Source: Macrocystis pyrifera (lineage: Eukaryota > Sar > Phaeophyceae > Laminariales > Laminariaceae). Taken from it: a stretch of 64,000 nucleotides of DNA. The notes under the pieces were generated by a model that saw nothing but the letters and a program-made list of their open reading frames with translations, was not told the origin of the DNA and did not search any database. The first letter of the stretch is position 1. Every line of letters starts with the position of its first letter. The position numbers and the translations under genes were made by a program. The stretch lies in contig JASSKH010000028.1 of NCBI GenBank assembly GCA_031763025.1, forward strand, positions 9,439,359 through 9,503,358, written 5' to 3'. Below are positions 10,894-57,500 of the stretch, piece after piece.

Positions 10894-12055
10894 AGGGGGT
10901 GGGGGAGGGCGTACTCATTACCGGTAGTTGTTTGCCTTAGTCACTTGACCATTGACTACGCATCCCTTTCGAGACGGAGCACCGATCCTACTCCTATCAA
11001 AGACACCTCCAACATTTGGGCGCTCATTACGTTGTTTCCATATATTACACAGTTTTTTTTTCGCTGATCTTATCTCCTTCCTGTTTCGTACCCTGTGGCC
11101 ACCATCTATCTCCTAGGATAGCGATTGTTTTCTCGCTAGTATCTAGTGTACCAAACTCCTTCATATCACATTCGTCTATTTCCCTCATCTCTTCTACTGT
11201 AGCACATCCCGGTCCTCCTTGTGCATTTCACATTCTCCTACTACGTGAGTTCTACCCTCTATTGCTTTGTCACACGGGCACATATGTATATCTACTTCCT
11301 CCTCCTCCCGGCTACTGGTGTACCTCTTTCTTCTTTCTGGCAGGGCCACGTCACCTACACGAAATTGCAGTTTCAGCGTTTTCGCGAAGTCCATTGGGCC
11401 GTGCAAATACGTTTTCATTCCTGTTCCTTCGCTCAAACTGCCGTATATCTCTAAATGTTTTCCCGATTCCGCCTTTGTTTCTTAGCGCTAGCCTTTCCCT
11501 TCTTTCTACCCTTTCTTCTACTTCTGCCTTGTACCTCCCAAACTTCCCGGCGGACATCACCTCTTCTTGATTTCCCTCTATATCTTTCCATACTTTCTCA
11601 ACTACGCCATCCCACCTTATTCCAGTTCGTTCTTTGGTTACTTTCTCCCATACAGCAACTATGGCTGGCAACCTCTTTTTTAGCATGTTCCTTGCTTTAT
11701 GTTGTTTCAACTTTCTCATGTCTCTACTTGTCTTGAGTGGGTGCATTCCCAGTTCTGCTCTCGATACTGTATTACTAGCCGTACTTGAGCATCTCGGTAT
11801 TTTTTTAGGTGCTATCATCTGTACTGTTTCCAACTGTTCTACGAGTTTCGCGTTCCCTTCCCATACTTCTCCAGCACACTCTAGCTTTGAAACTATCACA
11901 TTCATCAGGATACACCTCTTGGTCCTAGTGTCAAGGTGCGAGTCTGTTAGGATCGCATCCATCTTGCCCACGTGTGCTTTACCCTTTCCTATTAAGTTTG
12001 CTATATGTGTATCCCAAGAGCAGTCTTTTGAGATCTCTACGCCAAGGTACGCACC
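10894..12055 (-). mobile_element. 5'-truncated, degraded LINE, copy 1
   Basis: The minus strand carries the C-terminal part of a LINE ORF2 (frames 11971-11351 and 11436-11194): LGMHPLKTSRDMRKLK, RTGIRWDGVVEKVWKDI and MKTYLHGPMDFAKTLKL, interrupted by a frameshift. The same protein occurs in copy 2 at 26450-28071. Its 3' end on the plus text is a G-rich run (10894-10908) followed by GCGTACTCATT, so the transcript would end AATGAGTACGC plus C-rich sequence. The reverse transcriptase core is missing through truncation at about 12055. Confidence 0.85.
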
Positions 12056-36609: not shown

Positions 36610-38890
36610 CACCAGCCCCACTGGCGCAGCGGTCGTCCCACACTACGGTTTACTATTATTATATTAGCAGTATATAGTGTTAGTGGTGGTACACTATTCC
36701 GAAGTAGTCTTGTGGAGATCGACACACTTGACCTGGGCAGCATCCAGGGAAGCCATTGGCCTATATCCTTGACAAGGAATTACATACCTGGTGGTATAGA
36801 ATACGTGCGTTCTGTGACGAGCACAGGAGCTACAGTTCGGCTTATTATAACACCTGTAAAATTCAGTAAAAATGGAACACAGATGAGACGTATTACGCAG
36901 CTTGCAAAGTTGAGTATCAGCTACTTAATTAATCAGTCGAACTCACAGCTGACGTATTTCAAAATTATGAAAACTACGTGCAACAACTATTATAACTCCT
37001 CCTGTATAATAATACTACACAAGTAGTAGTAGTACTGCTGTGATAAATAGTAGTAGACGTATTGTAGCATAACTCGAACACATGTACATCATTTCAACAA
37101 TGTGCATGAATGATTATAGGCGGTTCATACAAGGTACGGCTGCCGGCCGTCTGCCGTGACGCCCAGCTTCGAGGTCCGAGCACACGACAACGCAGGAATC
37201 GTTCGCAAGTCATCCTCTCAACATGCATCATGCTGACCTGTGACTGACTGAGCTCTCTCCCCCCACAAATGGCTGATAAAACAGCGCGAAGAACTTGCCC
37301 CCCCCTCACACTTTTATTCTTTTACCAAGCAGGTCAGACGACTCACTAATTTCTCAGAAACTGTTCCAGGATAAAGTCGGCGTCCCCGGTGGCTTGGTAG
37401 GTGGTCCGCGTGCCTGTCAAGATCAATTTCGTGGGTTCAAGTCCCATCGAGTGCATGCTCATAATAGGGACTTTTTCTTGCATAAAAAATTGATAAGCGG
37501 AAAGCGCGAAAGCGTGAGTTGGCTACATTCGATGAAAATCGACGAGCAGTGGGAATGCTGAACCCTATGCGCGACAATAAATAAAGGCACGTACCGGGGG
37601 GGAGAAGGGACGACACCTGTGACCATGGCTTGTCCAGAAGATCGTCGAGGGTAAAACTTCCTACGATTGGGCTGGGAAGTAAAAGTGATGGATAAAAAAA
37701 AAAAAAAAAAAGTACGTACGTATCCACCTGTCACCAGGTACGCAAAGTACACCATGATCGTGATTATGTAATACGTAAGACAAGTAGAAAAAAAGGAATA
37801 TATTAATCAGTCAAACTCACAGCTGACGTATTTCATAATTTTATAAAAAAGACAAGAAAGAGAGAAGAGGGGATGTGTGTGACCGTTCTTTCTACCCGTT
37901 GACAGCCAGCACAACCAGTGTCCGTGCCGATTCTTTAATCCTAGAGAAGAGATACAACACAAGTTCTGTGGCCACAAAGCTACGCCACAGAGATGCTATG
38001 TTGCAACGTACCAGTAAGCACAGGGCAATGCAATGTCATGTCATCAGGGTAGAACAGAAGGGGTATCGGGGGTATGATGCTCAGACATGGGACACATTTT
38101 TCTTGGACGCGTCAAGGCATTTTCACCCTTGCTTTGAATATTGTTTTTATAATAGCAAAGCGGACAGTCAAGGCGTCAAGCCTCGGTCTCCAAGTATCTG
38201 TTGCCAGTCACCATCAGTACAAGCATGGTTTCGGGCTATCTCTGATTGGTCCAAATGCTGGAAATTTCGGGCTCGAGCAAAACGAAAAGCAAGCCTCCGT
38301 GCGGTGGGGGGTTGGGGAGCGGGAAATCGAAACTCGGTAAAAGGGGAAACAAGGAGCACACAAGGGATCCCCCGCATTTGGGGTGCCGCACGAATCAACG
38401 TCTGGAGTCCCGGGTAATGGGACACACGTGAGCAAGCCTTTGCCATCATGTGGGGGCGCAAAGGAACCGTGAGGGAGCCCGAAAGGTGAGTCGGATGGCC
38501 TGGTTCTGTGTCATCATCACTCTCTGGTCAAAAAAAGCGTGGAAAGTAGAACAAAACGAGACTCGTCAGTATATCTGGTATTTTGGGCGATGAGAGAAGC
38601 CATTCTGTGTAGCAATCTATCAGTTCAATAGCAGCAACATGGTAGGGATAGAGAGAGGGGGGGAGAGAGAGCAACCCGACCTCTGACGTGAAAACGTCCA
38701 GGGGTCCTTGCGTCCACCGGCACCGCAGCCTCACTGCTTCTGTGGTGTCACGTGTCCCAATATGCCGGGCTAGTCTCCTTAAAACGAGAATTAGGAGACT
38801 GCTGTTCTCATCTTTTTCTTGAACACGATGAAACGCTCAACGCACAACGATAGTGTGTAGACTTTTACTCTCACGAGACTCACGACCAGA
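36610..38890. other. Intergenic with minor repeats
   Basis: Holds two copies (36925-36975 and 37799-37850) of a repeat with CAGTCGAACTCACAGCTGAC; an inverted third copy is at 41379-41430. A tRNA-like sequence is at 37377-37450. The 180-codon open frame at 37875-38417 has no recognisable domain. Confidence 0.45.
37377..37450 (+). repeat. tRNA-like sequence (Asp-like loop)
   Basis: GGTGGCTTGGTAGGTGGTCC and GTGGGTTCAAGTCCCAT form plausible D- and T-arms; the T-stem pairs fully with one G-U. The loop CTGTCAA would give a GTC anticodon, but the anticodon and acceptor stems are mismatched. It is probably a SINE head or pseudogene. Confidence 0.5.
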
Positions 38891-39325
38891 CGGAATTGCA
38901 ACCGCCTCCCCTGTGTACCCTCAGGGGGCAGCAGCAACAGCAGCACCAGCGAGGGCGTTGCAGCTCGGACACTCCCGTTAGAACAGCTGCAGAAGACGCC
39001 GCAGAAGGAACTCGTCGTCGCTGCATCTCTCGGAGGGTGCGCGTAGTGTCGCCCGTCGACTCGAGGCTAAGCTACTCGTCGTCGGAATCTACTACTTCTA
39101 CTAGTGCTGTCGAAATGGGTGCTTCTGCTGCTGCGGAGCTCGAGAACACCAACTACAACTCCGAGGGAGCAGGGGAAGCAGTTCGAGTTGGGGAAGCGGG
39201 AGGGGCAGGAGGAAAAGGAAGCGTCGGCAGGGGTAGCGGCAGCAGGGCAATAATGAGGAGGTGGTCGTCCCGGCGCCTGGAGCAGAAGGTTCTGCTCCAG
39301 GCGAGGGAGCCACCAGCGCGCAGCG

Positions 39326-40255
39326 ATGGCCACGGCGGCCTCGGCGGCGGCTCACGGCACCGACTCCACCCTCCACGCCGCCTTGGAGGGAAGGGAGCAC
39401 TATCAAATGCCAGCACTAGCACCACCACCACCACCACCACCACCACCGGGAGCAGGAGCAGCCGTTATAGCAGCAGCGCCGACTACGAAGGTGGCAACGC
39501 CCCAGCTCGCGCGCCGCCTCGGACGGCCCAGGTCTGTCCCGCACGCCTCAGACGTCGTCAACCCGACGACAGCCAGACGCGCCTCCTCCGGCTCCGACTC
39601 CCCCGCTCTCGGCTTGTGGGCAGCCGACTCGTCGTTGTCGTCGCCGTCGCCGTCGTTGTCCTCCTCTCCCTCGTATCCCTCTCGCGCGATGTGCTCGTAC
39701 TCCTTGCTGGACGCTAACCCTCAACACGCCGTTGCATCGATGCTTCTTAATGAGGGTGGTGGCGGCGGCGCATGTGGCGAGTTCGTCCGGGGAGGTGTAG
39801 GTGATGGTGGTGGTGGAGGATGCTGCGGCGGCGTTGAACTGCAACAGCAACAGCAGGAGGTGCCGGCGTCGCCGACAGCCTCCGTCTCGTCGGACACCAC
39901 CACCACCACCACCGCGCCTGGGTGGGCCGAGCGAGCGGGGCTTACGGGCGGAGTGACTGCCGCCTGCACGGCTGCGAGCCCTCTTGGGAGAGAGTCCACG
40001 ATCGTGGGCGCGGCGGAGGGTGACCGTGAGGTGCCTCGGTTTCTCCGCCCCGTGATCTTGCTGCTGACGCTGTCGTTGTTGGCCATCGTCGGCACCAGCG
40101 TGATGAGAGGGAGTGGGGGAGGGGGGGGGGTGATGTTCGGGCCTGCTGTGCAGGCTGCCGGGGGCGTGCAGCTGCCGGAGGAAGTGGTGAATGATATTTT
40201 CGACCGAGCGGATAAGGATCGGGACGGGGTTATCGCGGGCGAGGAGATTCGTGAT
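39326..40255 (+). CDS. Exon 1: N-terminus, membrane span, canonical EF-hand
   Basis: The ATG lies in a GCGATGGCC context and opens 310 codons with no stop. The first 230 residues are Ala/Pro/Ser/Gly-rich with poly-Pro and poly-Gln (LQQQQQE). FLRPVILLLTLSLLAIVG is a membrane span, probably a signal anchor. The loop DKDRDGVIAGEE satisfies all EF-hand positions (D, D, D, G, I, E) and is preceded by the helix LPEEVVNDIFDRA. The exon ends at a GTGAGT donor. A second long frame at 38896-39717 lies in another phase and is probably 5' UTR plus shadow. Confidence 0.8.
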
Positions 40256-43200
40256 GTGAGTGGGCTATGTACTACCGATCTGACCGAAAATATAACATCT
40301 ATTTAAACTTTATGAATCATATCAAACGGTGTTTATATTTACGGTCAGAGAGGTACGTACCTGTGTACTTCTGTGCGGTGCTTCGATCATAGTTGCATCA
40401 TACCACGAGCATATTTATACCCTGCTATTAATATTAATAGTTTCACCTGCTGGGTATTAATTACTGACTGCTGTGCAAGTAGCTTTTTGCTTGCTTGCTT
40501 TCTTTGCATGCTTGTTTTTGTTGATGCCTTCGTCGTTTTTGCTTCCTGTCTTTCGCTCTTACCTTTGGTTGCTCTCTTGTTTCCTTGCTTGCCTGCTTTT
40601 CTTGTTGAGACTAACAGACCAGGTACACACCGGTACTCCTTGGATTGCGTGTTTTGTTGCTCGCACGTTTTTATTGTACAGCAGTACGTACTGCTTGTGT
40701 ATTAATACTCGTGTTATCTGTTACATCGTACGTGTATAGAAAACCTGGTACAATCCAAAGTACCAGGTACTTGGTTTTTACGTTTTTTGCCGGTATGTAC
40801 GGCGGTGAATTCGATGCATGTCGGATGGCCCGTCACAGCAACTTCAGCTTCTTTTACCACCTGCCACAGCGGCTGACTGACTGATTGGTCTGTGTTTTGA
40901 TTGTTTCGCTCGCTCGCTCATTGTAGATACCGTGTTTTTGATCTCTTATGTATAAATTCGCACTGCTGTACGTCGTCTTGCTGCGTATCACAATAGTGGG
41001 CGCCCGCAGTTGAGAACATTCATTATTTTGAGAAAAATAGGCTCAGATCGGCACGAACACGTAAGAAAATACACAGCAGCTCAACAGCAGTGGGACCAAA
41101 CTCTAAATCCTACCAGATATAGACTACAAAAAAGTAAGATGAAAAGGTCCGAAAACACGTAAGACGTTGAGCCTGGACACCAAATTGACGTTTCTTAACA
41201 CCGGGCGCCCACTGCTGCAGGCCTGTGTAATCTACTATTAATATTACGGGGGAACATAGTAAGTAAATAGGACGTACGGTACACTCAAAACACCTATATA
41301 TTTCCCTATTTTTACTAACGTTATTTGGTCCTGTATAGTATTGTCCCCCGTAATAATATTGATAGTATTAACTACTGGTGTAATTTTATAAATTTTGAAA
41401 TACGTCAGCTGTGAGTTCGACTGATTAAATAGTTGGTGGAATTAAAAAACCCTCTAAAACTTCAGATCAGATAGGAAAGTTGACGATTGACGATACAAAT
41501 TGATTACAGCAACGGCTGCGTGCGTGATTGGGGAATGATACAAAATCGATCGGTGCTATTGTCAATAGTTTTGCAGCTACCTGGTACAACGGACCCAGGG
41601 TACACGCTGTTATGAGGCGCTCACGTTCTCGCAGCTAGATGGTTGGTATCGCGTTTGGTCGCTTAGAGTACCAAAGGAGCCCAACATAAGATAGACGGAG
41701 CGGCCATGGCTATATACAATGCGTACGTATCGGTTATGTCGGGTGCTTCTACAAAGCACAAAGTGCCAGGTACAGGTATTAATAGTACTATTTCGGGGGA
41801 CCATAGTTAGCAGGACCTACGGTACACAAAAAAAAAATATATATTTCCGTATTTTGACAAACAATATTTGGTCCTATTTACTATGGTCCCCCGTAATGTT
41901 AATACTGAGGGAATATCTCGGATTATCACGTATGTATGGGTTGTTTCCGTATGCGGTTCGATTTTTGAGCTTCAGATTTTGACCCGATCGCATTTTCAGA
42001 TGTGAACTTGGCAAATCGAAACAGCAGTCTTCCTATGCGGAAAAATCGAATTTATTGTGCGTGCAGAGATTCGAGCAAACGCCGAGACCAACTGCTGTTG
42101 TTGTGGTCTGGCGCCGCGAAGAGTCGCGCTGGGCGCGCCGCACGGGGCGTAGGACCTAAGCGTTCGAGCCAACGCTTGATGCTTTTGGTCTGACGGCGAA
42201 GAGACGTGCCGAGTGCGCTAGAGTCAACTTGTCTTGGTATTTTGTATTTCACAATGTGACTGACTGCTGCTGCTGCTGCTGTACGAGTCTAAGAGTGCGT
42301 ATCCACGGAGAGGTGCGCGCCGAGTGCGCTTCTCTTTGTCTCTAGGCCCGAGCCCGCGCCAGCCGACTGTAGTCTGGCCACGGAGAGACGCGCCGCCCGT
42401 CGACCGCCGCCGACCGCGCGTCGGGCGCAAAGAAACGTCGCTATATAGCTGTGTCACCATCCAACTCATCGATCGTTCTGCTGCTGCTGCTGCTGCTGCT
42501 TGCTGTCGTGAATGACATCTTGAATTTAGATACCATCCCAATTTTCGATTTTAAGACCTAATGATCGAAGTCATCGGATTTTGGGCCAAAATCTGACGAC
42601 TCAAATCGAAGAAAATCTGGTCGGATTTTGTATATTCGGACTGCATAAGCAGGTGCTTTCATGTTTGAGATCGAAACACACAAATCTGAAGCTCGAAACC
42701 GAACCGCATAGGCCGTTTGGCCGCGTTTATTAACTGGACTTTTTTTTTTTTTCTCTTTTCGCAGAAATTTGCCGGAAACGCGAAAAAAATGAGGCGGGTC
42801 GTACCATTGCCTGATATCAGGGTGTGTCTTAACCTCCCCCAGAGAGCATTGGAACAAACCGAATGCAATCTTGTTTGCCACATTAATTGGTGCTGATCGG
42901 TTATGGAAGACGAATAGATTCAGTGCAGCCCGAGAGAAACAGCAGTGTACCTTGAAAGAGGAAGAAGTGTTACCCTTTTTCTTCTTTGGGAGGACCGAAC
43001 GGCTGGACCGAACGGGAACAATTAGCATATCATTTGATGTAGATGGACACCACCGAAGATGGACGTGGACACTAATTTCCCGTGGCATGTGCAATAGATA
43101 CCGTTCGTACTGATTCGACCGGCGAGGCCCAGGATTCTGCATGAACCCAAACACGTGGTTTTTTCACACAGAAACGGGACGAATGACCACGAGCAGCCTC

Positions 43201-46200
43201 GTTCCGTTCCGCTCGTTCCCATGCTCTTTGGAGAGGATTAAGCTTTGGAGAGGATTAAGAGTCGCCCTCATGTTTCATGAGGTTGCGACGCTCGTTCACC
43301 TGATCGAATTCAAAACTAGCGTCGCGCGCGCAGGCCGCCCGCTTGATCGTGCCGCTAGAGGTGCCCCTGCTCCTAGACTAGAGACTCGACCGTACCTCGC
43401 CGTACCTCGCGAGCGTATGTAGCGTGAATCAACCTTCTGGCGCGACAAAGCCCTCCACGACATGAAGATAGCTGGCCATTTCGTGGTGATCTCAGCTATG
43501 TAGGTGAATCGGCTCTGTCGACCGGACGAATAGAGCTCTCGTGGTGCGCGGCGCTTTCTGCGACCAGCCATGGCCTGGCAATGACGCTGGGGGTGACCCT
43601 GATCTATCTACAGGATGCCTATTGGCGACACGGCTCACACCGTGCGCCTGCCTGCCCGACGACACAACATCTTTAGGAATTTTGGCGGGGCTGAAAAATT
43701 TCCGCTAAACGCGAAATATATTGCTGCGATCCGGGAATCGAAACGAGAAAGAAAACGTCCATTTAATAACGGCCCTTACAGCATTACGGTGAGGTCGTTT
43801 TTTGGTATGTTTGATTAGTCTGGCTCGCGGTAATTTCGTGACGCCCAATGTCCCCTATTCACAAAAGCCACGTATTTTTATAGGAAAACCCTTCATTTTT
43901 GTCAGCGGGAAAAGGACTCTGCTGGCAGCGCCGTGATTTTTGGGGTGAGCTTCGCCTGCGGCCACTACCAGCGGTATGGGGAGAGGAGGGACGTGTTGTT
44001 GCTGACGATCAGTTTCGAGCACGGCAGTTGCCGCACAGCTGCACAGACTTGCAACGGCGTTTCCTGGCGTTGCTTCGTGGACGTATACCGCTTGTCCCCT
44101 CCAAGATGGCATTGAAGACGAGGAGTAAGCCGGCTTCCCTTATTGGTGTCATGCTGACAAGAGGCTCACAGTAGTGCCCGCTGGGCGCTGCCTACAGACG
44201 AAGGCAAACATGTATATAAATTCAGATGAATAAAAAAAAAAAATTGAACAATGCGCTTGGCATGTTTTGGTATACCAGGTACACACTTCGATCCTAGCGG
44301 AGATGTTTCTCTAACGTCCCGTGTTTTTTTTCCCCCCCCATAATTACCCGTACGCGAAACCCCTTTTCTGCTTTTTGGCGTAGTACGCGAACGCGCGACC
44401 AATTATGGCCGTACTCCGACAAGTTTGCTACCGAGAACTGAAGTTCAACTACGAGTTCAAGCAGTAGGGCGGGCGGAATTTCTGAGTTTCGTGGTGCAGG
44501 GTCCCGCCGCATGTCTTGTGCTTCCTTCGTATGCTTGAAGACATTCCCTACCTAGGCAGCGAAGGCTCACCGACCGCCCTTTTCAGCGTATTTTAGTGCA
44601 CGACTGGGACGAGTAGCGACTCCGGAATTATACGTATGCGCACGGCACCAGTAGGAGCTTACGTACGTACTCATACCCGTCGAGCTTTCCTCGTACAGCA
44701 GTCGTGGGTGCACCCGCGTAAGAGGGGGCAAGTCGCTCTACTTGCACTTGTCTTACGTCCTGTTCCTCTCTATTGTTCGATATACGAGAGGATGTCTCTT
44801 TCATCGGATGACCGACATTAGAGAGATCTCGAAATCTCTCTCATATCGGCAGAAACAGGTTGTGCTCAGTTCATGACTAGATGCAGAGGGCGAGAGTGAC
44901 CACTTTGTTTTGGCTGGCATTTGGGCGCGGCAAAGGAAGTCTAAGTGAAAATATATGAAGAACACGCATGCTGCAACAGACGTGCACCATTTTTCTTTTC
45001 TGAAGTTCCCCGCTAGCTTGAGGAGCTCTTATACTATTAGTAAGTCGCCCTAGATCTGGCTTCAAGAAAAAACAAAGTGCGGTCGGATGATTTTTTTTTT
45101 TATGTCTTCGGTACACAAAAACATAATTTTGCAAAACACAAGTGCAAGTCCGACGGTTTTGGGTTGGGGAACCGCGTCGTTCAGAAAATATTTTGAACAA
45201 AATGTACTATTGATACCTCTATCTATCGTAGCACGAGTCGGAAAAAAAAACAAACGAAGCGGTGAGGTCGAAAACTTCCCCACAACTCATTTTTGCAAGT
45301 TTGGTGTGATGGTTCGATCGCGCGTTCAAAGGGGTGTGTAGGTTTTCATAGTTGTCTACAAATTATTATAGGTTTGAACACAAGGAAATCGCTGCCTACC
45401 GAGTGCCTGGTATACCATTAAGGCGACTGCTGTAGCTACGGTATACTCCCGGTGTGTGTGACGCCTCTCTTTGTTGCATTGGGGCGTCTCTGCGTGCGAT
45501 AACATTGTTTCATTGGCCGCTGTCGTGTTAACCCCACAGCAGTAGCAGTGCAGTCAGTAGCACCGTTGTATATACATACACCCACGCACACGGCCAGTAG
45601 GCGCCCCGTCCTCCGAACACGATAATTACTGTTCGTCGGCCTGCGGTCAACTCACGTCGCCACATCTTTCTCTCTCGAGGTATTGACTGCTGGAGTGAGA
45701 AGACTGAGGGGGACCACCAAACACACAACACGGCTTTCATTGCACGTGTGATCCACAGCAGTATATAGCTTGCGCTCGATTGAGGAGGGGTTCCCCATTA
45801 GGACTGCAATCCCGTTTTGGGCACAAACGACTCAAACTCTTAAGTAAGTTGTTCCCAAAGCGGGAACTGCGGTGCTAATAGAAGGGTCAATCCGAACATT
45901 TCCGTTCGATGTAAGAGAGTATTATAGTAGCGTCTTTCGTCCTAAAATTAACCCCTCTTATACTCGTAGGGGTGGCGGGTGTGTCAGCCCATTGACCCGC
46001 TCATCAAATCCTGACTTTCTCTTATATTCTGATTTCTCGTATATATATATATATATATATATCTCCTATATCGGTGTACCCACTGAGCTGCTGTACTTGA
46101 TGTATGGTGACGAGCTTTCATGTCGCCGCTATCCCGCAGCCCAGCAAAGCAGCACCAGATTTTCTGTATATATACACAACCAGTATGATGTCACCGATTT

Positions 46201-49200
46201 TATGTCTGTACCAGGTACTCACATAGAATGTACCAATACGCACATGTGTTTACTTACGTAGTGTGTATACCAGGTATGCGTTCGAGGAGCGTACGTACGT
46301 GCGTACCCCCCGCAGCCCCGTGCCAGTGGGCTCTTTTACTTGTAACAGCAGTCTTTTTGCCTCTTGAAAAACGAAACCGTTTGCTCCGAAAGCAGCGTAC
46401 AGAGTATTTTAATACCCGGTATACCATTCATACGGATAGTGTTCGCTGCGTCGCCGGCATGGTTTTGCCCTCTTGAAAGGTACCGGTGAAAAAATCCGGG
46501 GCGCGAGTGTTTTCGACACAATCCTGTGGGAGAAAAAACCACAGGTGGAACACTAGTACGGGAGTCCATAGTGAATAGGACTTATGGTATACACCAAAAC
46601 CTATATATTTACCTATTTTTTCCGAAAAATATCTGGTCCTTTTTACCATGGTCTCCCGATATAGTGTGCCAGATAATCTTAGTGTTGGTCACGTTTTTGT
46701 TGCGGGCCTTCTGGCGGAAACCCCGATTATTGTGGATAAAGTCTCGTGGGATCACGGCGCCTTCCTTGGTGGGCCCTGCTGGCGGCTACTATATTTTTTT
46801 TGCACCACTACTGCAAGTGGGAGCAGGGTGCCAAGTGTGATCAGTTCCGGGTGGGATCAGGGTACCGAGCGGGAGCAGGGTCGGCAACAGCGTCGACCTG
46901 TGACATTCTCTTCACAGGCTCGTGTGTCTACGAATAGTTCTTGCTCATGTTTTCGTTCGCTCGCCGAGCGTGAAGCTTGACTGGCTGACGCTGGTGCCTA
47001 CTGACGACGCACCAAGTGAAGTCCCGGAAGTTGCCCCCCCCCCCCCCCCTCCTATTATATATCTGGTATATATTATATATGGGTTGGGTTGGTGTCGGTT
47101 GGCAACGACACTGTAAAACATGCCGCTCACTACGTGAGCTAGACATCCAGGGTACCGTTTTTTTTTTTTTTTTTTTGGGCGGTCGCCCACAGCTGGTCGT
47201 CGAGTTAGATCATTTGTGCGAGGTAAAGAATCTTGACTCTGCACAAGGGAATTGATCGTATCACGTAGTGTTCAAGGTAAGGCACCCAAGAGGCAGTTAC
47301 ACAGTACTCCCATTGCTGTCTCTGGAAGTGGCTACACCGGAAATTAAACTGACGCATTGAGGCTGTCATCCATATGCAGGTCCGCCTCACAGGCGGTTCT
47401 TAGTAGGATGCAGCTCACCCTTCATGCGACTCGCCGGACACCTCACGGCGCTTCGCGCTCGGTGCAAGCAATGTCTGCCTGGTCGGTGAAAACCCGACAT
47501 GCTCCGTCCCGGCATTGTAGGGATGCGAGGGTCTATGGTCATACGACTACGGCCATGCATGAGATCGAGTACATCTCTGCTATCGAGTACACCCCCCCCC
47601 CCCCCCCCCCCCCCCCGCCCCGCGCCACGCTCTCTGGTAGCGCCTTCGTCAAAGCAAATTACATTATGTTACTTGAACTGACGTCTATTATACGTGCGAT
47701 TTTTTTACATGTTCTATTAGTGTACGTCGAAGTATAAGAGCTGCGAGTTGGCCTACCAGCACGGCAGAAGCGCGGAGACCAGATTGGTCGAAAGTCAGCT
47801 CTACAAGCCAAAAGTATGCCAGGTACCTGGTAATATATACGTGCTTGGAAAACTCGAATATTTGTACGGCAGTAGTAGGTAGTACACAGTGTACGTCGAA
47901 GTGACGCCTTCTTTTATACCTGGGGTGTAGTACGTACTCGTACACAACCTCAACACTGCAAGCGGTCCTGCTATTGCTGGTGGTGCTGTTGTAATATTAG
48001 TGGTCAGTGTCATGACAATAGTAGTTTCCCTTTGATTTTTTATGCTTCGTTCCCGCCCGCCCACCCACCCACCCACCCCCCTCAGCTCGTCGAGGGTGCC
48101 GCGGACTCCTCCCAAGGCGCCTCTGAAGACGATGCGTCTGGGATCAATGCTCGCATGAAGAGCATCATGAAGAACCTCGACCGGAATGACGACGACGCCC
48201 TCTCTCGGGCAGACGTCACGACCTCCTGGAATCGGCAGGGTGAGAGCGGAGCGGCAGTGGTCCTGTAATATCACGGGGGAACATGCTATCAATATTCAAA
48301 AACCTAACATGGTTGTGTAAACTTGCCGAGACGCATGGGTTTTAGGTCCATCGTTTTAGGTCCATCGTGGGTTTTGAGTACTCCTAACCCTTTTAGAACT
48401 GCAGTCCCTTTTGGGGGACTATCCACTCTAGTCCTAAGTACGTTGCCCCCAAAACGGGACTTCAGTCCCAAAACTATATCACCCGGTATGTTTTTGTTGA
48501 CCCAGCTTCGACAAAATGGTTGATGGTCCCACGACTAATCCCTCGTTATTTACGTATTCATTCCGAGAAAATTCCCCAGGCGGTCGAGGCTAGGGTTCGG
48601 GGTTGGGGTTTAGAAAGTCCATGTACAATTCAACCATTTTTGTACGTAGGGGCTGAAGGTTCGTACCAGCCCTCCGGAGCGGGGCGGTTCGGCCGGGTGA
48701 TATTTTCGTATTTCCGTATATTTATTTCGAGGTCGTGCGAGGAACGGCAGCAGCAGCAGCAGCAGCAGCAGCAACTGCAACAGCAACAGCAACAGCGGCC
48801 TCAAAGTCGATCAGTCCCATCGCGTGGCGTTGGGTGAGGGTCGCGTGTACGGCGTTGAAAGGCCAGTGCGACTGCTGTGTGATGGCCCCAAGGCCTCCCG
48901 TTTGTTTTTCATCCGACTGAACATGACTCGTGTATGGGTATGATACGTGCCATATCGCAGAGGCGATGCGGGGCGGGGCGGCGGAGGTTTTGAAAGGGGC
49001 GAAGACTAAAAACTCTCGATGACACCGCGGGGGTGGGATGGTTAGGGTGGGGCGCGGTGCGGTGCGTTGGGGTGAGGTGGAGTTAGCACGTTGTCGCGAA
49101 CGGTATGGTCTGCACAGGGTTACAATGTTTTCGCCGTCGAACGAGCTATAGCGGGAAAATCGTGTGAAAAAAACGCCCGCTAGTATTTTGGGGAGGGTGC

Positions 49201-50577
49201 TCTCTTTGACGGCTGGTGGTGGTGGCAACAGTGGCGCTGGCGGCGGTATAGCTCTCGCGCCAATTGTGTGCGTCGAAAACCACCGCCGATTTATTCCACT
49301 CGCTTCCGCGATGACGTCACAGCAGACGTGAGAGAGCGCAGTAGATATATAACCAGACCATGCCGTATCGTAAACCAGGTACCAGGTATACATCAATATA
49401 TGTGCGATACAAACAGTACCTGGTATACAAGCTGGTACTTGATTTGCTATTTGCTGTACGTGAGTACGCGTATTTTCTTAAAGGCGTTGAGCTTAACAGG
49501 ATGACGTGCATTTTTCCTGATTGATTTTTCCCCAGGGATGCTGCTGACAGCGGAAGAAGTGGCCCAGTGGGTTCGACACGCCGTACAGCTGCCCCAGGAC
49601 GTGGCCGACGCCTTCTTGCGCAACGCGGTCACGGGATACGACTTCCACGAGCTCACGCAGAACCAGGTAGGCACATGCGGGGGGGGGAGGGGGGTCGGAG
49701 CGGGGGGGGTGGCATCTAAGTACAACGATGCGCTTTTGCTCTTTTTTTTTCTGTCCTACTCAACATCGCACCCACGTGTTTGGACGAACTGCTGTACATG
49801 GTATGGGGGTTGAGTTGTGTTAGCGGAAGTAGGAGATGAGTTAACATCCTGGGGCGGTAAAAAATTGTAGGATCTCCTTTTTGTGTTGGGAAACCCGATG
49901 TGTTTGCGGAAGCTGGTGCTGCTGCTGCTGCTGGTGCTGCTGCTGCTGGTGCTGCTGCTGGTGCTGCTGCTGGTGCTGCTGCTGCTGGCGTTATTTGCGA
50001 CCCTGGTATCACACATCGGCACCGGTTGCTGCTACTTTTGATAGCATTGATGGTGTATGGCGCCGAGGTGTGCGAGGCAACCTGTTTTTTTTGTTCCGTC
50101 ATGGGAGTACGTGGGCAAGTGGTTTGGTGTAACCCCGCAGACGGTTTGTACGAGGCAACCTTGCGCACGCATTCATGGCGAAGAGCGTATACGCTCAGGC
50201 CGTGAAACTTGAGGGGTGATTGCTGCTTGGTTTAGCCACCGTGGAGCTTGGGAGGTCAAAAATTGCTTGGTGTACTTATTGTCCCCGTGAAACTTGTTAG
50301 GGGGGGGGGGGGGGGGGGGGGGAGGGGGGGCGTACTCATTATCATGCATGGCCATAGTTGCTGAAACTTGTCAGGGGGGAGGGGTGTTCTCGATAGGAGA
50401 GATGTACTCGATCTCATGCATGGCCGTAGTCGTATGACCGTAGACCCTCGCATCCCTACAATGCCGGGACGGAGCATGTCGGGTTTTCACCGACCAGGCA
50501 GACATTGCTTGCACCAAGGGGGGGGGGGGGGGAGGGGCGTACTCATTATCATGCATGGCCATAGTTGCATGACCATA

Positions 50578-50608
<31 letters not shown>

Positions 50609-52795
50609 GGTGAAATTGTTGCTTTTGGTTTTATTTTTACTCGACTCGAAAAAAGTTCGTTGTCCCGCGCACATTAATAGGTTGTTTTCGGTCCCCCGTC
50701 ACGTGACACGCAACCTCAGGGTGCTCTGCTGGAGAAGGACCTCGGAATCACGCGGCCGGCCTTCCGGAGGCGCCTGACGCAAAGCATGCAGTGGAAGCTG
50801 TGGAAGATGGGCGAGGAGCCGTCGGCACCCAGCGCCGTGCGCGCCTCGGACGCGTACTGCGGAGCCGTTTCCCTTTGGTGGAACGACACGAGCGAGGGCA
50901 ACGTTAGCTTCCCGGTGCACAAGTTCGTGCTCCGACGAGCCGCTTTGGGGCAGAGGGGGGGCGGGGGGGGGGGGGTGAAGGACTGGGTGACGGTGATGGA
51001 CGGAGCGGGCGCCGGGTTTCTGGACACCGGGGTGCAGTCGGGGGAGTCGTACCGTTTCAACCTGCAGGCTTGGAACGCGATTGGCCACAGCAGCTCTGTA
51101 GAGATCGATGTGACCGTCGCTACCAAAGGCTGCATATCCTGGTGGTTGTGGTGGAGAGGGGGGGCAGGGGAAGATCAGTTTCTCGCAGACCTGCTCGCGG
51201 CGCTGACCGCACTGGCCGCCGCAGCGCTCGGGTTTCGCGTGCTGGGTGGCCGTAGGCGAGGAGAGGCCGCCGCCACAGCCTCGGCCGCAGTTACAGGAAC
51301 AAGGGCCGAGGATGGCGATCGCGGAGGGGGAGGGGGAGGGGGGCGGCGGCGGCCCGACTCTCTCCCGCCAGCGAAGCCGGCGAAGCCGGTGGCAGTGCAC
51401 TTGTCTTCCCACGGCGAGGGAGACAGCGAGGGTCACCACACGGGGGGGGGGGGGGCGGGTCGCCGGTGTCGGCGTCAAGTAACGGGGGAAGCTGGTCCGA
51501 CAGAGAGAAGAACGACCTGCGTAAAATGCCGCCGATGTTGCGAATGGCGGCCCGCGGGCAGAAGCACAGGTTGAAGCGAGCTAGCAGCGAGGTCATGCCG
51601 GGGACGTCGACGGCGGGGGCGGGGGTTGGGGCGGTGGCGGGGCGGTCGTCGCCGCTGGGGAATGGAAGGGAGTCGGGTAGGCTGGACGCGAAGCAGCACG
51701 CCCTCGCTACCGAGAGCATGCGCAAGAAAGCGGCGAAAAGGCTCCTGCCTCGGCGGAGCTCCTCTCGAGATGAAAAGGAGGTCTGCAGAGTGTGCGGGAG
51801 AGAGTGGAGATGGTGAGCGGAGGGAGTGGTTGCTCTTTTTTGTCTTCCGGTTTTTGGATGGCCCGTCGCTCGGAGATTGTTGGTTTGCCAGGCAGCGATG
51901 ATAGCTAGCCTGGGGGGATAGGAGGGGTGGTTGTGTATCGTGTAGGAAGATGGTTCGAAGAGGATCAGAGGGCACTAGAGAGAGAGACAATGTGTTTCTG
52001 CTGGAACCGATTTTGCGTGTGCTGTTTTGGGAACGTTCGTGAGCTGACAACCCCTTACCATGCCAGTGAAGTGCCTGTGGGCCTTGTGATCGCTGAGCGA
52101 AGGTGCCTCGCTTTCGAGTGCCATAGGATTCGATACCATACCATACCACATCATATCATACCATACCATACCATACCATAACATCATACCATACCATACC
52201 ATACGATGCCACCACTGTTGCTGCTGGCTCGTGTTATCTTGTGCAAAATCGTTTTAAACAGCAAGCCCTCTGGCCATACCCTACCTTTGCGGCGTGAGAA
52301 TTGCACTGCTTCGCTCACCACCACTTTTTTTTACTTACCAGCGCCCTTTTTCCTGTTTTAATTGTCGTTTTCCCTATTTTTCTTTCCTCTCGTTTCGTGT
52401 GTTTCTGTTTTTTTTTTCGTGTCTTCGTTTTTTCTTCTTCGTGGCGTCTTCTCCGGCGGGACAGGTACCGACCCGGCAAGCACACGTGCGGCATGTGTCA
52501 CGAGCAGTTTTGCGACCGCAAAGACTGCGGAATAGCCTCTCATTCTTTCGGGGCGTGTCCCGTCGGGGGGGGACGTGCATGTGTAGCGCCTGTCTTGTTG
52601 ATTGCCGACGTCCCACGTCTTTCGATCGGTGAACGCAAGAAAAGACAGCAAGACAGCGCGTGCGCGAAGGCGGCGGCGAATAGTCTAGTATGGTGTCATA
52701 CGAGTATGGTTGTAGCGGAGGTGAGACGCGAGCCAGGCGGGGGGAGGTCAAGGGTGTGTGTGTGTTTTTTGTTTGTTTGTTATGTTTTGTGTTAA
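39326..52795 (+). CDS. STIM-like membrane protein: TM, EF-hand pair, SAM, FN3, TM, FYVE-like finger
   Basis: Five exons: 39326-40255, 48086-48239, 49536-49666, 50720-51812 and 52465 to about 52795. All junctions agree in phase (0, 1, 0, 2), except that exon 4 needs one extra base in a G-run. Order of the product: low-complexity N-terminus; membrane span about 239-260; canonical EF-hand; degenerate EF-hand; SAM; fibronectin III with NDT and NVS sequons; second span about 559-580; Ser/Arg/Lys-rich tail; Cys/His zinc finger. The EF-SAM unit with a non-canonical second EF-hand is how STIM ER calcium sensors are built. Sequons between the two spans suggest that part is luminal or extracellular. 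I infer a calcium-sensing membrane protein; location and partner are unknown. The 7.8 kb first intron is filled with repeats, and an extra small exon there cannot be excluded. Confidence 0.75.
41243..41356. mobile_element. MITE (ACGGGGGACCATAGT family), copy 1
   Basis: The ends ATTACGGGGGAACATAGTAA and TATAGTATTGTCCCCCGTAAT are inverted complements around an AT-rich core with CCTATATATTTCCC. Copies 2-4 share ends and core. Confidence 0.85.
41789..41899. mobile_element. MITE, copy 2
   Basis: TTTCGGGGGACCATAGTTAG at the left and ACTATGGTCCCCCGTAAT at the right, with a core containing AGGACCTACGGTACAC. Confidence 0.85.
41946..42714. repeat. Segment bounded by inverted repeats, with CTG tracts
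   Basis: The left end CCGTATGCGGTTCGATTTTT and the right end, which reads CCTATGCGGTTCGGTTTCGA on the other strand, are similar and both continue into GAGCTTCAGATTT. The core is GC-rich with repeated GCCGAGTGCGCT and two CTG tracts (42267-42283 and 42477-42500). Confidence 0.5.
45797..45880. repeat. Foldback repeat, copy 1
   Basis: ATTAGGACTGCAATCCCGTT pairs with AGCGGGAACTGCGGTGCTAAT. A related copy lies at 48393-48472 (GAACTGCAGTCCCTTTTGGG pairs with CCCAAAACGGGACTTCAGTC). Confidence 0.7.
46557..46663. mobile_element. MITE, copy 3
   Basis: TACGGGAGTCCATAGTGAAT at the left and ACCATGGTCTCCCGATA at the right, with the same CCTATATATTTACC core as the other copies. Confidence 0.85.
47050..47616 (+). 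mobile_element. C-tailed short interspersed repeat, copy E (full length)
   Basis: The most complete copy. A C-run (47034-47049) precedes the 5' end TCCTATTATATATCTGGTAT. The body holds a long T-tract, GCACCCAAGAGGCAGTTACA and the tail GAGTAC, followed by a 25 bp C-run. The pre-tail segment is duplicated (ATCGAGTAC twice). Confidence 0.88.
48086..48239 (+). CDS. Exon 2: degenerate second EF-hand
   Basis: A CCCCTCAG acceptor and GTGAGA donor bound 51 codons plus one base. The loop DRNDDDALSRAD lacks the central Gly and ends in Asp instead of Glu, so it probably binds calcium weakly or not at all. The flanking helices (MKSIMKNL and VTTSWNRQ) are kept. Confidence 0.75.
48393..48472. repeat. Foldback repeat, copy 2
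   Basis: Inverted arms of about 25 bp around a short loop in intron 2 of the STIM-like gene. A half-MITE (CACGGGGGAACAT) lies just upstream at about 48272. Confidence 0.7.
49536..49666 (+). CDS. Exon 3: first half of the SAM domain
   Basis: Runs from a TTTTTCCCCAG acceptor to a GTAGGC donor. The 5' split codon (g + gg) is completed from exon 2. It encodes MLLTAEEVAQWVRHAVQLP, then FLRNAVTGYDFHELTQNQ, which matches SAM helices 1-4: the W-V start, the F-x-x-N-x-V-x-G core and the L-T of helix 4. Confidence 0.8.
49917..49990. repeat. (CTG/GTG)n microsatellite
   Basis: Irregular GCTGCTGGTGCTGCTG tract in intron 3. Its frames read as poly-Ala, poly-Cys and poly-Leu and are not coding. Confidence 0.9.
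50294..50612 (-). mobile_element. Cluster of three truncated C-tailed repeats between G-runs (copies F1-F3)
   Basis: F1 (about 50331-50360) is only some 30 bp of the unit, flanked by TGAAACTTGTTAGGGGGG and TGAAACTTGTCAGGGGGG. F2 (about 50385-50513) reads from GATGTACTCGATCTCATG to CATTGCTTGCACCAA. F3 (about 50538-50578) is about 40 bp from CGTACTCATTATCATG, flanked by AAGGGGG on both sides. G-runs separate all three. Confidence 0.85.
50720..51812 (+). CDS. Exon 4: SAM end, fibronectin III, second membrane span, basic tail
   Basis: Begins GALLEKDLGITRPAFRRRL, the last SAM helices, in phase 0 with exon 3. PSAPSAVRASDAYCGAVSL through YRFNLQAWNAIGHSS is a fibronectin III domain with the Y-x-F-x-x-x-A-x-N-x-x-G-x-S signature. 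FLADLLAALTALAAAALGF is a membrane span, followed by GGRRR (positive inside). The frame changes at the G-run near 51442-51455. Beyond it the frame WSDREKNDLRKMPPMLR through KKAAKRLLPRRSSSRDE to EVCRVCGREWR is coding and joins exon 5 in phase. The run is one base short, or two long, for an intact frame. Confidence 0.75.
52131..52206. repeat. (ATACC)n pentanucleotide repeat
   Basis: About 15 units of CCATA/ATACC with a few CATC interruptions, in intron 4 of the STIM-like gene. Confidence 0.9.
52465..52795 (+). CDS. Exon 5: rest of a FYVE-like zinc finger
   Basis: After a GGGACAG acceptor the sequence YRPGKHTCGMCHEQFCDRKD completes CRVCGREW from exon 4. The pattern CxxC...KHxCxxC...FCxxxxC resembles FYVE-type fingers, which bind PI3P membranes, but the R(R/K)HHCR core is reduced to KHTC. 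Coding character fades after about 52740. The open frame ends with TAA at 52795, so the true 3' end may be an unseen splice. Confidence 0.6.
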
Positions 52796-54595: not shown

Positions 54596-57500
54596 TCATC
54601 CCTTTCTTGGCACCGGGACGTACGGCTTACTCAACGGCACGACCGGGCGCTTCCAAACAGGGGTCGCCGCTATCCTCTCTCTCCTTTTTTTGCCACCGGC
54701 AGCAGTGCAAACTCCTCCGGCCGATCCCACGCTGGTGCCCGACGCGCTTGCGCTACCCGCTCCCCCGGGCGGCGACGTTGTTAGCGTCGGAGACATTGGA
54801 CTCGGTGCGAGATTATTCCCACCCGCTGCTGCCGCTGCTGGTGGTTTAGCGCCGTTGTTGTGAACGGCCCCGAAGGCACTACTGGTCCTGCTCCCGCCAT
54901 TTTGCTTGGCAGGCACAAAACCCCTCGTCTGGCTCGTCTGCGACAAAATGTGTCGGCTTAGAGCTCTTCTTTGGGCAATCTCGGCGGCGCGCAGACGGTA
55001 CTGGGTCTTCTGGACTCCTGGCTGTCCTCCTGCTCCATTAATAAATCCCTCCCCCCGCGCGAAGTGTTTGCCTCCTCCTCCTCCTCCTCCTCCTCCTCCT
55101 CCTCCTCCTCCTCCTTCTCCTCTCCCTCCGGATTTCTCAAAGTCGCCCTCCTCCTCGTCGTCATCCTCTTCGTCGTCGTCTTCAGGTACTCGCCAACTTC
55201 GGCGTCGGCGACTATGTGTTCCGAGGGGGGACGCGGCTGGTAGTGGACCTTTGTGGCTCCCTCCAGCGGTCTCGGAAACGGAACGCTGAGTGAGCCGGGG
55301 GGCGGGGCGGGGCGGAGAAGGGAGCACGATGCGTTTGGTGTATATAAAGCGGATGGAAATTCACGCATCGTCCGCGCTAAACGGGTTTTAGGTGGTGTAC
55401 GTGTTACTGCAGTGCTTGATTTTTTTTTAGTTTTGGGACGTTTTCGTACCGTCACGCTTGGAGGATAGGTAGGTGAGGGTATAAAATACGCGCCAGGTGC
55501 AAAAAAGGCCGAAACGCGGGGACTTTTCACATCGTAGACCAAACCACAGTCGGAGGGAGAAAAACATCACTGCTTGTGGCAAGCATAGCCCTCCTTCAGC
55601 CAACTTCACGTCTCCCCGTTTGCTTTCAAAAACGTAATACTGTCTGTGCCGGTATGTATCGGCATGCAGGAATACCAGGTACATTTTTACGTTGAATAGA
55701 CAACGCCGATAAAAAAAATCGTGGCATAATGTTGGAAGAAAGGAGAATCCCACCACTCTCCTACTCCCACTCTCTCACCGCCGACCCCGAGATGCTAAAA
55801 AACGAGCGAGCGGTCTGAACGGCGGGAGCAACGGGAGCGATGTCGTATCTCCTTCCGCCCTCATAGAGCCGCATCCGTTCCATCCTCTCGTCCTCCTGGC
55901 GCTGCAAGGCTAGCTGCCGACGCCTCCTCTCCCGCTGGATTCTGCGAGCCGTCTCCCTCCGCATCCGTATCTCGTGCTCGTCGGCTTGGGTCTCATCGTA
56001 CGCGAGAACCGCGGCCACCCTCTCCCTCTTGGCGCGCGCCTCCGCTCGCCGGGACCGCTCCACCTCTCGCTTTCGATGTCGCTTTTGCGCCGCCACGCTT
56101 CCCGCGCGAGCCACGGCCACGGACCGCAGTTCGTCCACCCTCGACGCCATCTCGGTCTCCTTCTGTCGCCTTTCTTCCTCCGCGCTGCACTCGGCCTCAT
56201 GTTTCCTCGCCAGCTCCTTCTGCTTCTGGTAAGCAACCCGCGCGAGCGCAGCGCGCCGAGACGCTTTGAAGTGCTGAATCTCGCTGGTGGTGGGTGCCCT
56301 TTTAGCCGGCTGTGTTTAAGGGTGGTGGGCAGGCGGGTGGGACGCGGCAGACACACAGCGCAGCGCGAATCGCGTGGACGTTGGCTACAAATCAGGTCAA
56401 TCGGGCGATACGTTTTTTTTTGCGAGTGGGCTAAGTGATCAGAATGGGGATCTTTCTGTTGTATTGTGTTGTTTTGGGTGTTGAGTTATTCATGGTGTGG
56501 ATGGGTGAGCTTTTCTGTATGTAGTATTTCGCACAGCATTGAGGCGTGGCTTGCATGCACGTGCCCACGACAAGGTCAAATGGTGTAGTACATTATTGTC
56601 TTTTTTCGCGACATGCCGTGGCATGCCGTGGCACCACCCGCGGCAAAACCTTCCACGGCATCTTCCACGGCATACCACGGAACCTTCCACGGACCTCCAC
56701 GGCATACCATGGGACCCTAACCCTAACCCTAACCCTAACCCCAACCCCAGCCTAGGTGCCGTGGACATTGGGGTGCCGTGGGGGTTGCCATGACATGCCG
56801 TGGGATTGCCATGGAGGGTTGCCATGGTACGACCCATGGCATGTCACGGCAACCCCCACGGCGTGCCATGGAATCCTATGCCACACCATGGGATGCCGTG
56901 GTGATGCCATAGTATGCCATGGGCAGTACCATGGCAATGCCGCGGCATGCCCACGACCAGGTCAAATAGTGTAGAACCCTGCAAACATCGCACCGAATAA
57001 CCAGCTTCTCTATGTACATTCGGTTAGACCCTTAGACCCACCTCTGAAGCTTTCGCCCTCTGATCGCCGCCGGCCGCGGCGTCGAGCTTCCGCTGCGAGA
57101 GAGCTCTGCGCCGGGCACGCCTTTGCGCTTCTCGTACAGCAGCAGTGTTGCCGCCATCGTCTCTGTCTTGCGGCCGCGACATTACGAACATGTCTAGCTC
57201 ACGCTCCATCCCAGCGGAGAAAGGGCTGGGCGACGAGTCTGCTCTCGCGGCTGTCGTTTCTCCCACTGACCCGAACGGGGCCGGTACTGTCGGGAGAGGG
57301 GTAAGTGGGGGGACAGGACGCGATTTTCCCTGGCCGGAACAAAGGCGGAAAGCAAGCGGCGCAGCGCAAGTGGCGAAGTCGTGATGATATCCATATATAT
57401 AGTTGTCGTTTGGTCTGTCAGGTCTCGTATCTGGTCGAGCATCTCCCTCCCTATTGTACGGCCGCTATGACACTTCGTTCTATAGCATAAAGCTACCCAT

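Follow-up and report, generated by a model that had tools for sequence, protein, structure and literature searches.

The stretch of Macrocystis pyrifera DNA analyzed here (64,000 nucleotides of contig JASSKH010000028.1, hereafter the window) carries a gene that an original prediction, made from the letters of the sequence, had described as a STIM-like calcium sensor with an added FN3 domain, a second membrane span and a zinc finger. The analysis confirms the gene and most of the architecture proposed for it. Searches of an assembly of 537,376,219 bases in 223 contigs located a second gene of this type, and giant kelp appears to encode at least two related EF-EF-SAM proteins, at least one of them membrane-spanning.

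Gene structure and domain content

Four exons on the plus strand (39326-40255, 48086-48239, 49536-49666 and 50720-51812) share a single reading frame that opens with an ATG and terminates at 51572-51574, and all internal borders carry the flanking AG and GT dinucleotides. The translated membrane part of the protein comprises 689 amino acids (aa) and contains, in order, a predicted transmembrane span (TM1), two EF-hands (EF1 and EF2), a SAM domain, an FN3-like domain and a second span (TM2). In-phase splicing, as first proposed, is borne out for these four exons but not for the tail and finger, where frame 0 stops at 51572.

Exon 1 (39326..40255, plus strand, as are all features of the gene given below) is open from the ATG to a GT donor, which the second gene has at the equivalent EEIRD/DEIRE place, and encodes a low-complexity N-terminus of about 240 aa, TM1 and EF1. 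The sole support for the N-terminal 240 aa is the open frame. A 287-codon open frame (38854-39717) overlaps exon 1 in a different frame and ends in a hydrophobic stretch of its own; in this low-complexity region either of the overlapping frames could be coding. TM1 (aa 239-260; 40040..40105) and TM2 (aa 559-577; 51179..51235, followed by RVLGGRRRGE) reach 19-residue hydropathies of 2.27 and 2.01, respectively.

The EF1 loop (DKDRDGVIAGEE; 40211..40246) is matched by Pfam EF-hand_7 and EF-hand_6. Exon 2 (48086..48239), which has AG/GT borders and intron places matching those of the second gene, encodes EF2, whose loop (DRNDDDALSRAD; 48179..48214) is included in an EF-hand_7 match covering both hands. 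EF1 and EF2 (DRNDDDALSRADV) both fit PS00018, the EF-hand loop pattern; the two matches are the only ones among 127,996 residues of the window read in six frames, and a chance origin of the loops was rejected on this count. The EF2 loop has D, N, D, S and D at positions 1, 3, 5, 9 and 12; it is not degenerate, as the original prediction had it, and a likeness to the hidden EF-hand of STIM is not supported.

The SAM domain begins 12 residues after the EF pair. Its first part is encoded by exon 3 (49536..49666) and its last part by the start of exon 4 (50720..50788), the SAM_2 match ending at aa 428. In the spliced 159-aa EF-SAM part, EF-hand_7 (1.7e-8) and SAM_2 (5.1e-6) are both above their Pfam cut-offs; in the full 689 aa, EF-hand_7 scores 28.3 bits, just below the cut-off of 30, and SAM is unlisted. 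The two spans, the canonical EF1 and the SAM domain of the original prediction are thus confirmed by hydropathy, pattern and profile. None of the 10 SAM_2 places listed for the genome lies within 100 kb of any of the 38 EF-hand_7 places (compared by eye), both lists being lower bounds that missed the two genes studied here (split exons).

The FN3-like domain (50819..51124, ends approximate) contains two N-glycosylation sequons, N460 and N466, at 50882 (NDT) and 50900 (NVS). The sequons stand as predicted; the FN3 assignment comes from a profile of the two kelp copies compared with FN3 domains in the PDB, the window copy having no Pfam match and the second copy matching a DSCAM-type FN3 at 0.16, below the cut-off. 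Among the 18 PDB hits of this profile, titin scores 3e-8, with no single stretch passing; the best with a passing stretch are myomesin-1 (5.8e-4) and a Cdon-binding adhesion protein (0.0048), and two receptor tyrosine phosphatases are also among the 18. In its second half, around A-W-N-x-I-G-H-S, the kelp domain resembles FN3 domains from titin, myomesin and receptors of the cell surface; it differs from them in the missing Pfam match and in an inserted G-rich loop. A single-sequence AlphaFold2 model of this part (mean predicted local distance difference test score 38) is uninformative.

Beyond TM2 the reading frame changes twice. The tail remains in frame with the membrane part up to its stop (51236..51574), and the better open frame switches at a run of 14 G (51442..51455), after which a basic, Ser-rich tail and the first Cys pair of the finger (CRVC) are read in a different frame (51456..51812). 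Exon 5 (52465..52632) encodes the remainder of the finger. Its last Cys pair (CSAC, resembling CDFC of the second gene) lies in a third frame, after a run of eight G (52565-52572), and this frame stops at 52630-52632; the exon 5 frame originally predicted continues to 52795. The tail and finger frames were read separately and no base was altered. The basic stretches preceding the finger are likewise in shifted frame. The predicted tail and FYVE-like finger are therefore present, and the finger recurs in the second gene, but in the window they are out of frame with the membrane part. The giant kelp assembly is reported to have been built from PacBio reads (PMC10498591); homopolymer errors are the likeliest cause of both frame changes, and decay of the tail is a possible one.

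A profile of both fingers (15 PDB hits) finds the FYVE fingers of EEA1 (0.0036) and Vps27 (0.013), with which both kelp copies align, sharing the first two Cys pairs and an H-x-C-x2-C-H-x2-F-C core. Unlike these fingers, the kelp copies score below the Pfam cut-offs (FYVE_2, E 0.0011 and 19.5 against 27.2 bits, for the window; FYVE, 20.1 against 27.8 bits, for the second gene), and the window copy lacks the basic RRHHCR-type motif. Because this motif is missing, phosphoinositide binding by the window finger appears doubtful. The profile searches proposed as a check on the architecture thus recovered the EF-hands and SAM in the 159-aa part, and neither FN3 nor FYVE_2 at the Pfam cut-offs.

A protein search of the genome with the window gene returned five matches, namely the four window exons and one place on the minus strand of contig C214; the reverse search with the C214 copy returned three, of which two were exons of the copy itself and one was the window SAM exon. 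The C214 copy repeats the order of the window gene, with EF1 (~740440), EF2 (739734), SAM (738793), three FN3-like pieces (736918, 735822 and 735155) and a split finger (730279 and 728465; all positions converted from the reversed region). The two copies are 37% identical in EF-EF-SAM, 35% in the FN3-like part and 26% in the finger, where they have the first five Cys and two His in common. The intron before EF2 coincides between the two genes in place and in phase (0). The intron after EF2 also coincides in place and is compatible with phase 1 in either gene, the C214 donor having been picked among overlapping GTs; the intron within the window SAM has no counterpart in C214. It had been allowed that exons 1-2 and 3-5 belong to different genes; since C214 has EF1, EF2, SAM, FN3-like part and finger in this order, with matching introns around EF2, the window exons were not joined from different genes, and this possibility was rejected.

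A comparison of 55 SAM codons between the copies finds agreement at position 1 in 32 codons, at position 2 in 42 and at position 3 in 20, with 28 amino acids shared. Because positions 1 and 2 agree more than position 3, both copies are judged to be maintained as protein under selection. EF2 of C214 is acidic at positions 1, 3, 5 and 12 and deviates from the pattern at 6 and 7. No relative was confirmed on viral contigs with two peptide patterns.

Repeats occupy parts of the introns. Three related ends of short palindromic elements resembling miniature inverted-repeat transposable elements (GGTCCT...GGTCCCCC) lie in the first intron, at 41324-41349, 41867-41892 and 46632-46657; the search for such ends gave three matches at three or fewer mismatches and none in shuffled sequence, and translated strings similar to them were seen by eye near the C214 copy. 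The segments ~47460-47600 and 50371-50520, in two introns of the gene, appear from translated frames compared by eye to carry a single repeat in opposite orientations; fragments of this repeat also occur in the C214 region.

Resemblance to STIM and proposed function

Animal STIM is a calcium-store sensor that opens the Orai channel. Its features include a hidden EF2 without calcium ligands, a signal peptide, a single span right after SAM, the SOAR region and a basic, lipid-binding C-terminus. The kelp unit has the same order of EF-hand, second EF-hand and SAM as STIM1 and STIM2, and the kelp protein, like these, probably spans a membrane and may carry a basic tail on the far side. In contrast to STIM1 and STIM2, its EF2 loop is intact, an FN3-like domain separates SAM from the membrane, a further span, a long N-terminus of about 240 aa and a FYVE-like finger are present, and SOAR was not found.

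The profile of both kelp EF-SAM parts places a STIM EF-SAM (6pw7_A) second among 196 PDB hits, at 6.6e-5 and covering positions 26-145 of 159. Among the best 60 of the 196, 6pw7_A alone spans EF2 and SAM; the other 59 end at or before position 106. Profile-profile alignment (hhalign) with three animal STIM EF-SAMs gives a probability of 91% over 124 columns. STIM homology on the basis of this probability alone was rejected after controls with chimeras, artificial joins of EF and SAM pieces from the same genome.

We consider, with a probability of roughly 40%, that the kelp protein is a luminal calcium sensor (or receptor) working somewhat like STIM without being STIM. Because the sequons lie between the spans and arginines flank them (before TM1 and after TM2, plus one directly after TM1), the part between the spans probably faces the lumen of the endoplasmic reticulum (ER) or another store, with the N-terminus and tail in the cytosol; RVLGGRRR after TM2 suits a cytosolic tail. 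Seawater contains about 10 mM calcium. An EF-SAM unit facing seawater would be saturated, whereas one facing the ER lumen could sense. In a full store, calcium would keep the two EF-hands folded onto SAM. A drop in calcium would, by analogy with STIM, loosen the unit and let it self-associate, which would draw the spans and cytosolic tails together; the basic tail and finger could then contact a membrane that is acidic or carries phosphoinositides, or else a membrane protein, one possible target being Orai. With both EF loops intact, the unit may hold two calcium ions.

The genome encodes Orai. Two exon matches above the Pfam cut-off (9.5e-7 and 0.0025) lie ~6.6 kb apart on one strand of contig C211 (7475497-7475607 and 7482113-7482325), and ALIAGFALVSLVEI aligned to the CRAC channel protein 4hkr, the closest PDB relative (E 0.0027 for the joined query). 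The kelp Orai retains the selectivity Glu (VSLVEI) and has Ser at the residue aligned with human R91. Orai is a candidate partner present in the genome, not a relative of the EF-SAM protein. Both Orai and IP3 receptors are reported from brown algae, and Orai also from diatoms, in a survey that finds no STIM1 in Orai-bearing early plants and green algae, nor in diatoms, and that anticipates another protein in its role (PMC11085791).

Several results weigh against a STIM-like sensor. Queried by itself, the window EF-SAM recovers STIM1 (2k60) from the PDB only at E 0.12, in 20th place, below EF-hand proteins and the SAMD5 SAM. In three-row profiles STIM scores 43.8, a small margin above the best chimera at 42.0 (mean 29.4, standard deviation 5.9; none of 80 reaches STIM; three of the 10 SAM pieces, L021, L023 and L024, were omitted as short). 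Taken one at a time, the three STIMs reach 24.1, 26.3 and 34.5, where the best of 80 single chimeras, drawn from eight of the 38 listed EF places and all 10 SAM places, has 33.2; one of the three (6pw7) tops all 80. A SAM-only profile puts STIM third (E 0.26), after two non-SAM proteins and before SAMD5 (0.83). Pfam EF-hand_STIM1 (PF25578), which scored 3.7e-11 with a STIM-like control fragment, is unlisted at E ≤ 10 for either copy, where weak matches may be filtered. SOAR is unlisted by Pfam for the kelp protein or its tail, and none was found in the genome at E ≤ 1, where introns could hide one. The EF2 loop appears capable of binding calcium, unlike that of STIM. A genome search for an IP3 receptor gave no match, with controls equally silent. 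In C214, EF-hand_7 (2.2e-6) is below the Pfam cut-off and SAM is unlisted, the hydrophobic TM2-like stretch (~734900) is out of frame with the FN3-like end, and the 12.5 kb upstream, inspected by eye, showed no TM1.

By the tests made, the kelp protein is no member of the STIM family as judged from its sequence. Its EF-SAM unit resembles that of STIM in order, and shared descent is possible; an 'ancestral' EF-SAM sensor, as suggested in the original prediction, is not established, because STIM beats the chimeras by a small margin. If the kelp protein does sense store calcium, store-operated signalling predates animals or arose twice; the kelp pair provides testable calcium-sensor candidates in an alga that possesses Orai.

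Alternative explanations

The main rival to a luminal sensor is a receptor or adhesion protein of the cell surface, with EF-SAM-FN3 turned towards the wall and seawater. Calcium would be permanently bound for folding, FN3 and SAM would bind a partner in the wall or on a neighbouring cell, and the finger would relay a signal or steer endocytosis. FN3 domains are typical of extracellular adhesion proteins, in line with the adhesion protein and receptor phosphatases among the PDB hits, and the sequons between the spans would suit such a surface domain. FYVE fingers, those of EEA1 and Vps27 included, work on endosomes. To our knowledge, however, SAM domains outside the cytosol are known mainly from STIM, and one kelp copy keeps both EF loops calcium-binding while the other keeps the acidic positions of EF2. 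We regard a surface receptor as unlikely, though a serious contender.

SAM domains are usually cytosolic, and the EF-SAM unit would be so too if one or both hydrophobic stretches gave no luminal placement, being for example a re-entrant pair or part of a misread N-terminus; the protein would then be an ordinary calcium-responsive membrane scaffold. The low-complexity, unsupported N-terminal 240 aa and the failure to find TM1 in the C214 copy fit this view, but the hydropathy of both spans, the arginines on their flanks and the sequons within the loop speak for a membrane-crossing topology, and a cytosolic unit seems improbable.

True descent from STIM would mean that the EF-SAM unit came from the last eukaryotic ancestor and that its flanks were rebuilt in the stramenopile line. 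It is favored by the sole full-unit match among the best 60 PDB hits and by STIM scoring above all 80 three-row chimeras and, in one of three cases, above all 80 single ones, but the margins are small, two of the three single STIMs fail to top the chimeras and the EF-hand_STIM1 model is silent. Descent is left unproven because the margin is narrow and the window alone finds STIM at E 0.12. Published surveys diverge on whether stramenopiles have STIM. STIM is dated to the base of animals in one (PMC7016017) and found in animals and choanoflagellates but not in early plants, green algae or diatoms in another (PMC11085791), and nine oomycetes yielded no STIM beyond a SAM-only hit (PMC4820453), in agreement with a further report on oomycetes (PMC9694693). 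In contrast, STIM1 is scored in metazoa, viridiplantae and stramenopiles in a species set that contains Ectocarpus (PMC9804665). Because of this last report, the kelp gene may be the orthologue of a protein already counted as stramenopile STIM1, its architecture being undescribed in the literature searched: titles and abstract openings contain no description of an EF-EF-SAM-FN3-TM-FYVE protein. For both survey views the gene pair is a concrete object: its exons are mapped, it comprises two copies and its departures from STIM are listed. On balance, STIM descent is rather improbable.

Convergence is another improbable reading. Brown algae would have joined EF-hands to SAM independently of animals and built a store sensor of their own. 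Its FYVE-like finger, instead of a coiled coil, would serve to open or recruit Orai or to anchor the ER at phosphoinositide-bearing membranes, giving a second, convergent form of store-operated calcium entry.

An artefact of exons from separate genes, or a decayed copy, is very improbable in spite of the frame being broken at two G-runs towards the C-terminus, since it is open from the EF-hands to TM2 over four exons, C214 has the same order and matching introns on either side of EF2, and both breaks fall in homopolymers of a PacBio assembly.

Other features of the window

No tRNA gene was found in the window by ARAGORN, and seven other long open frames, scanned out of 22 listed, have no Pfam match at E ≤ 0.01. 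Two of the seven are on the minus strand: the frame at 11354-12055 resembles, by eye, the end of a reverse transcriptase of the non-long-terminal-repeat type, and the frame at 55764-56315, ~3 kb beyond the EF-SAM gene, encodes 184 aa of charged, coiled-coil-like sequence.

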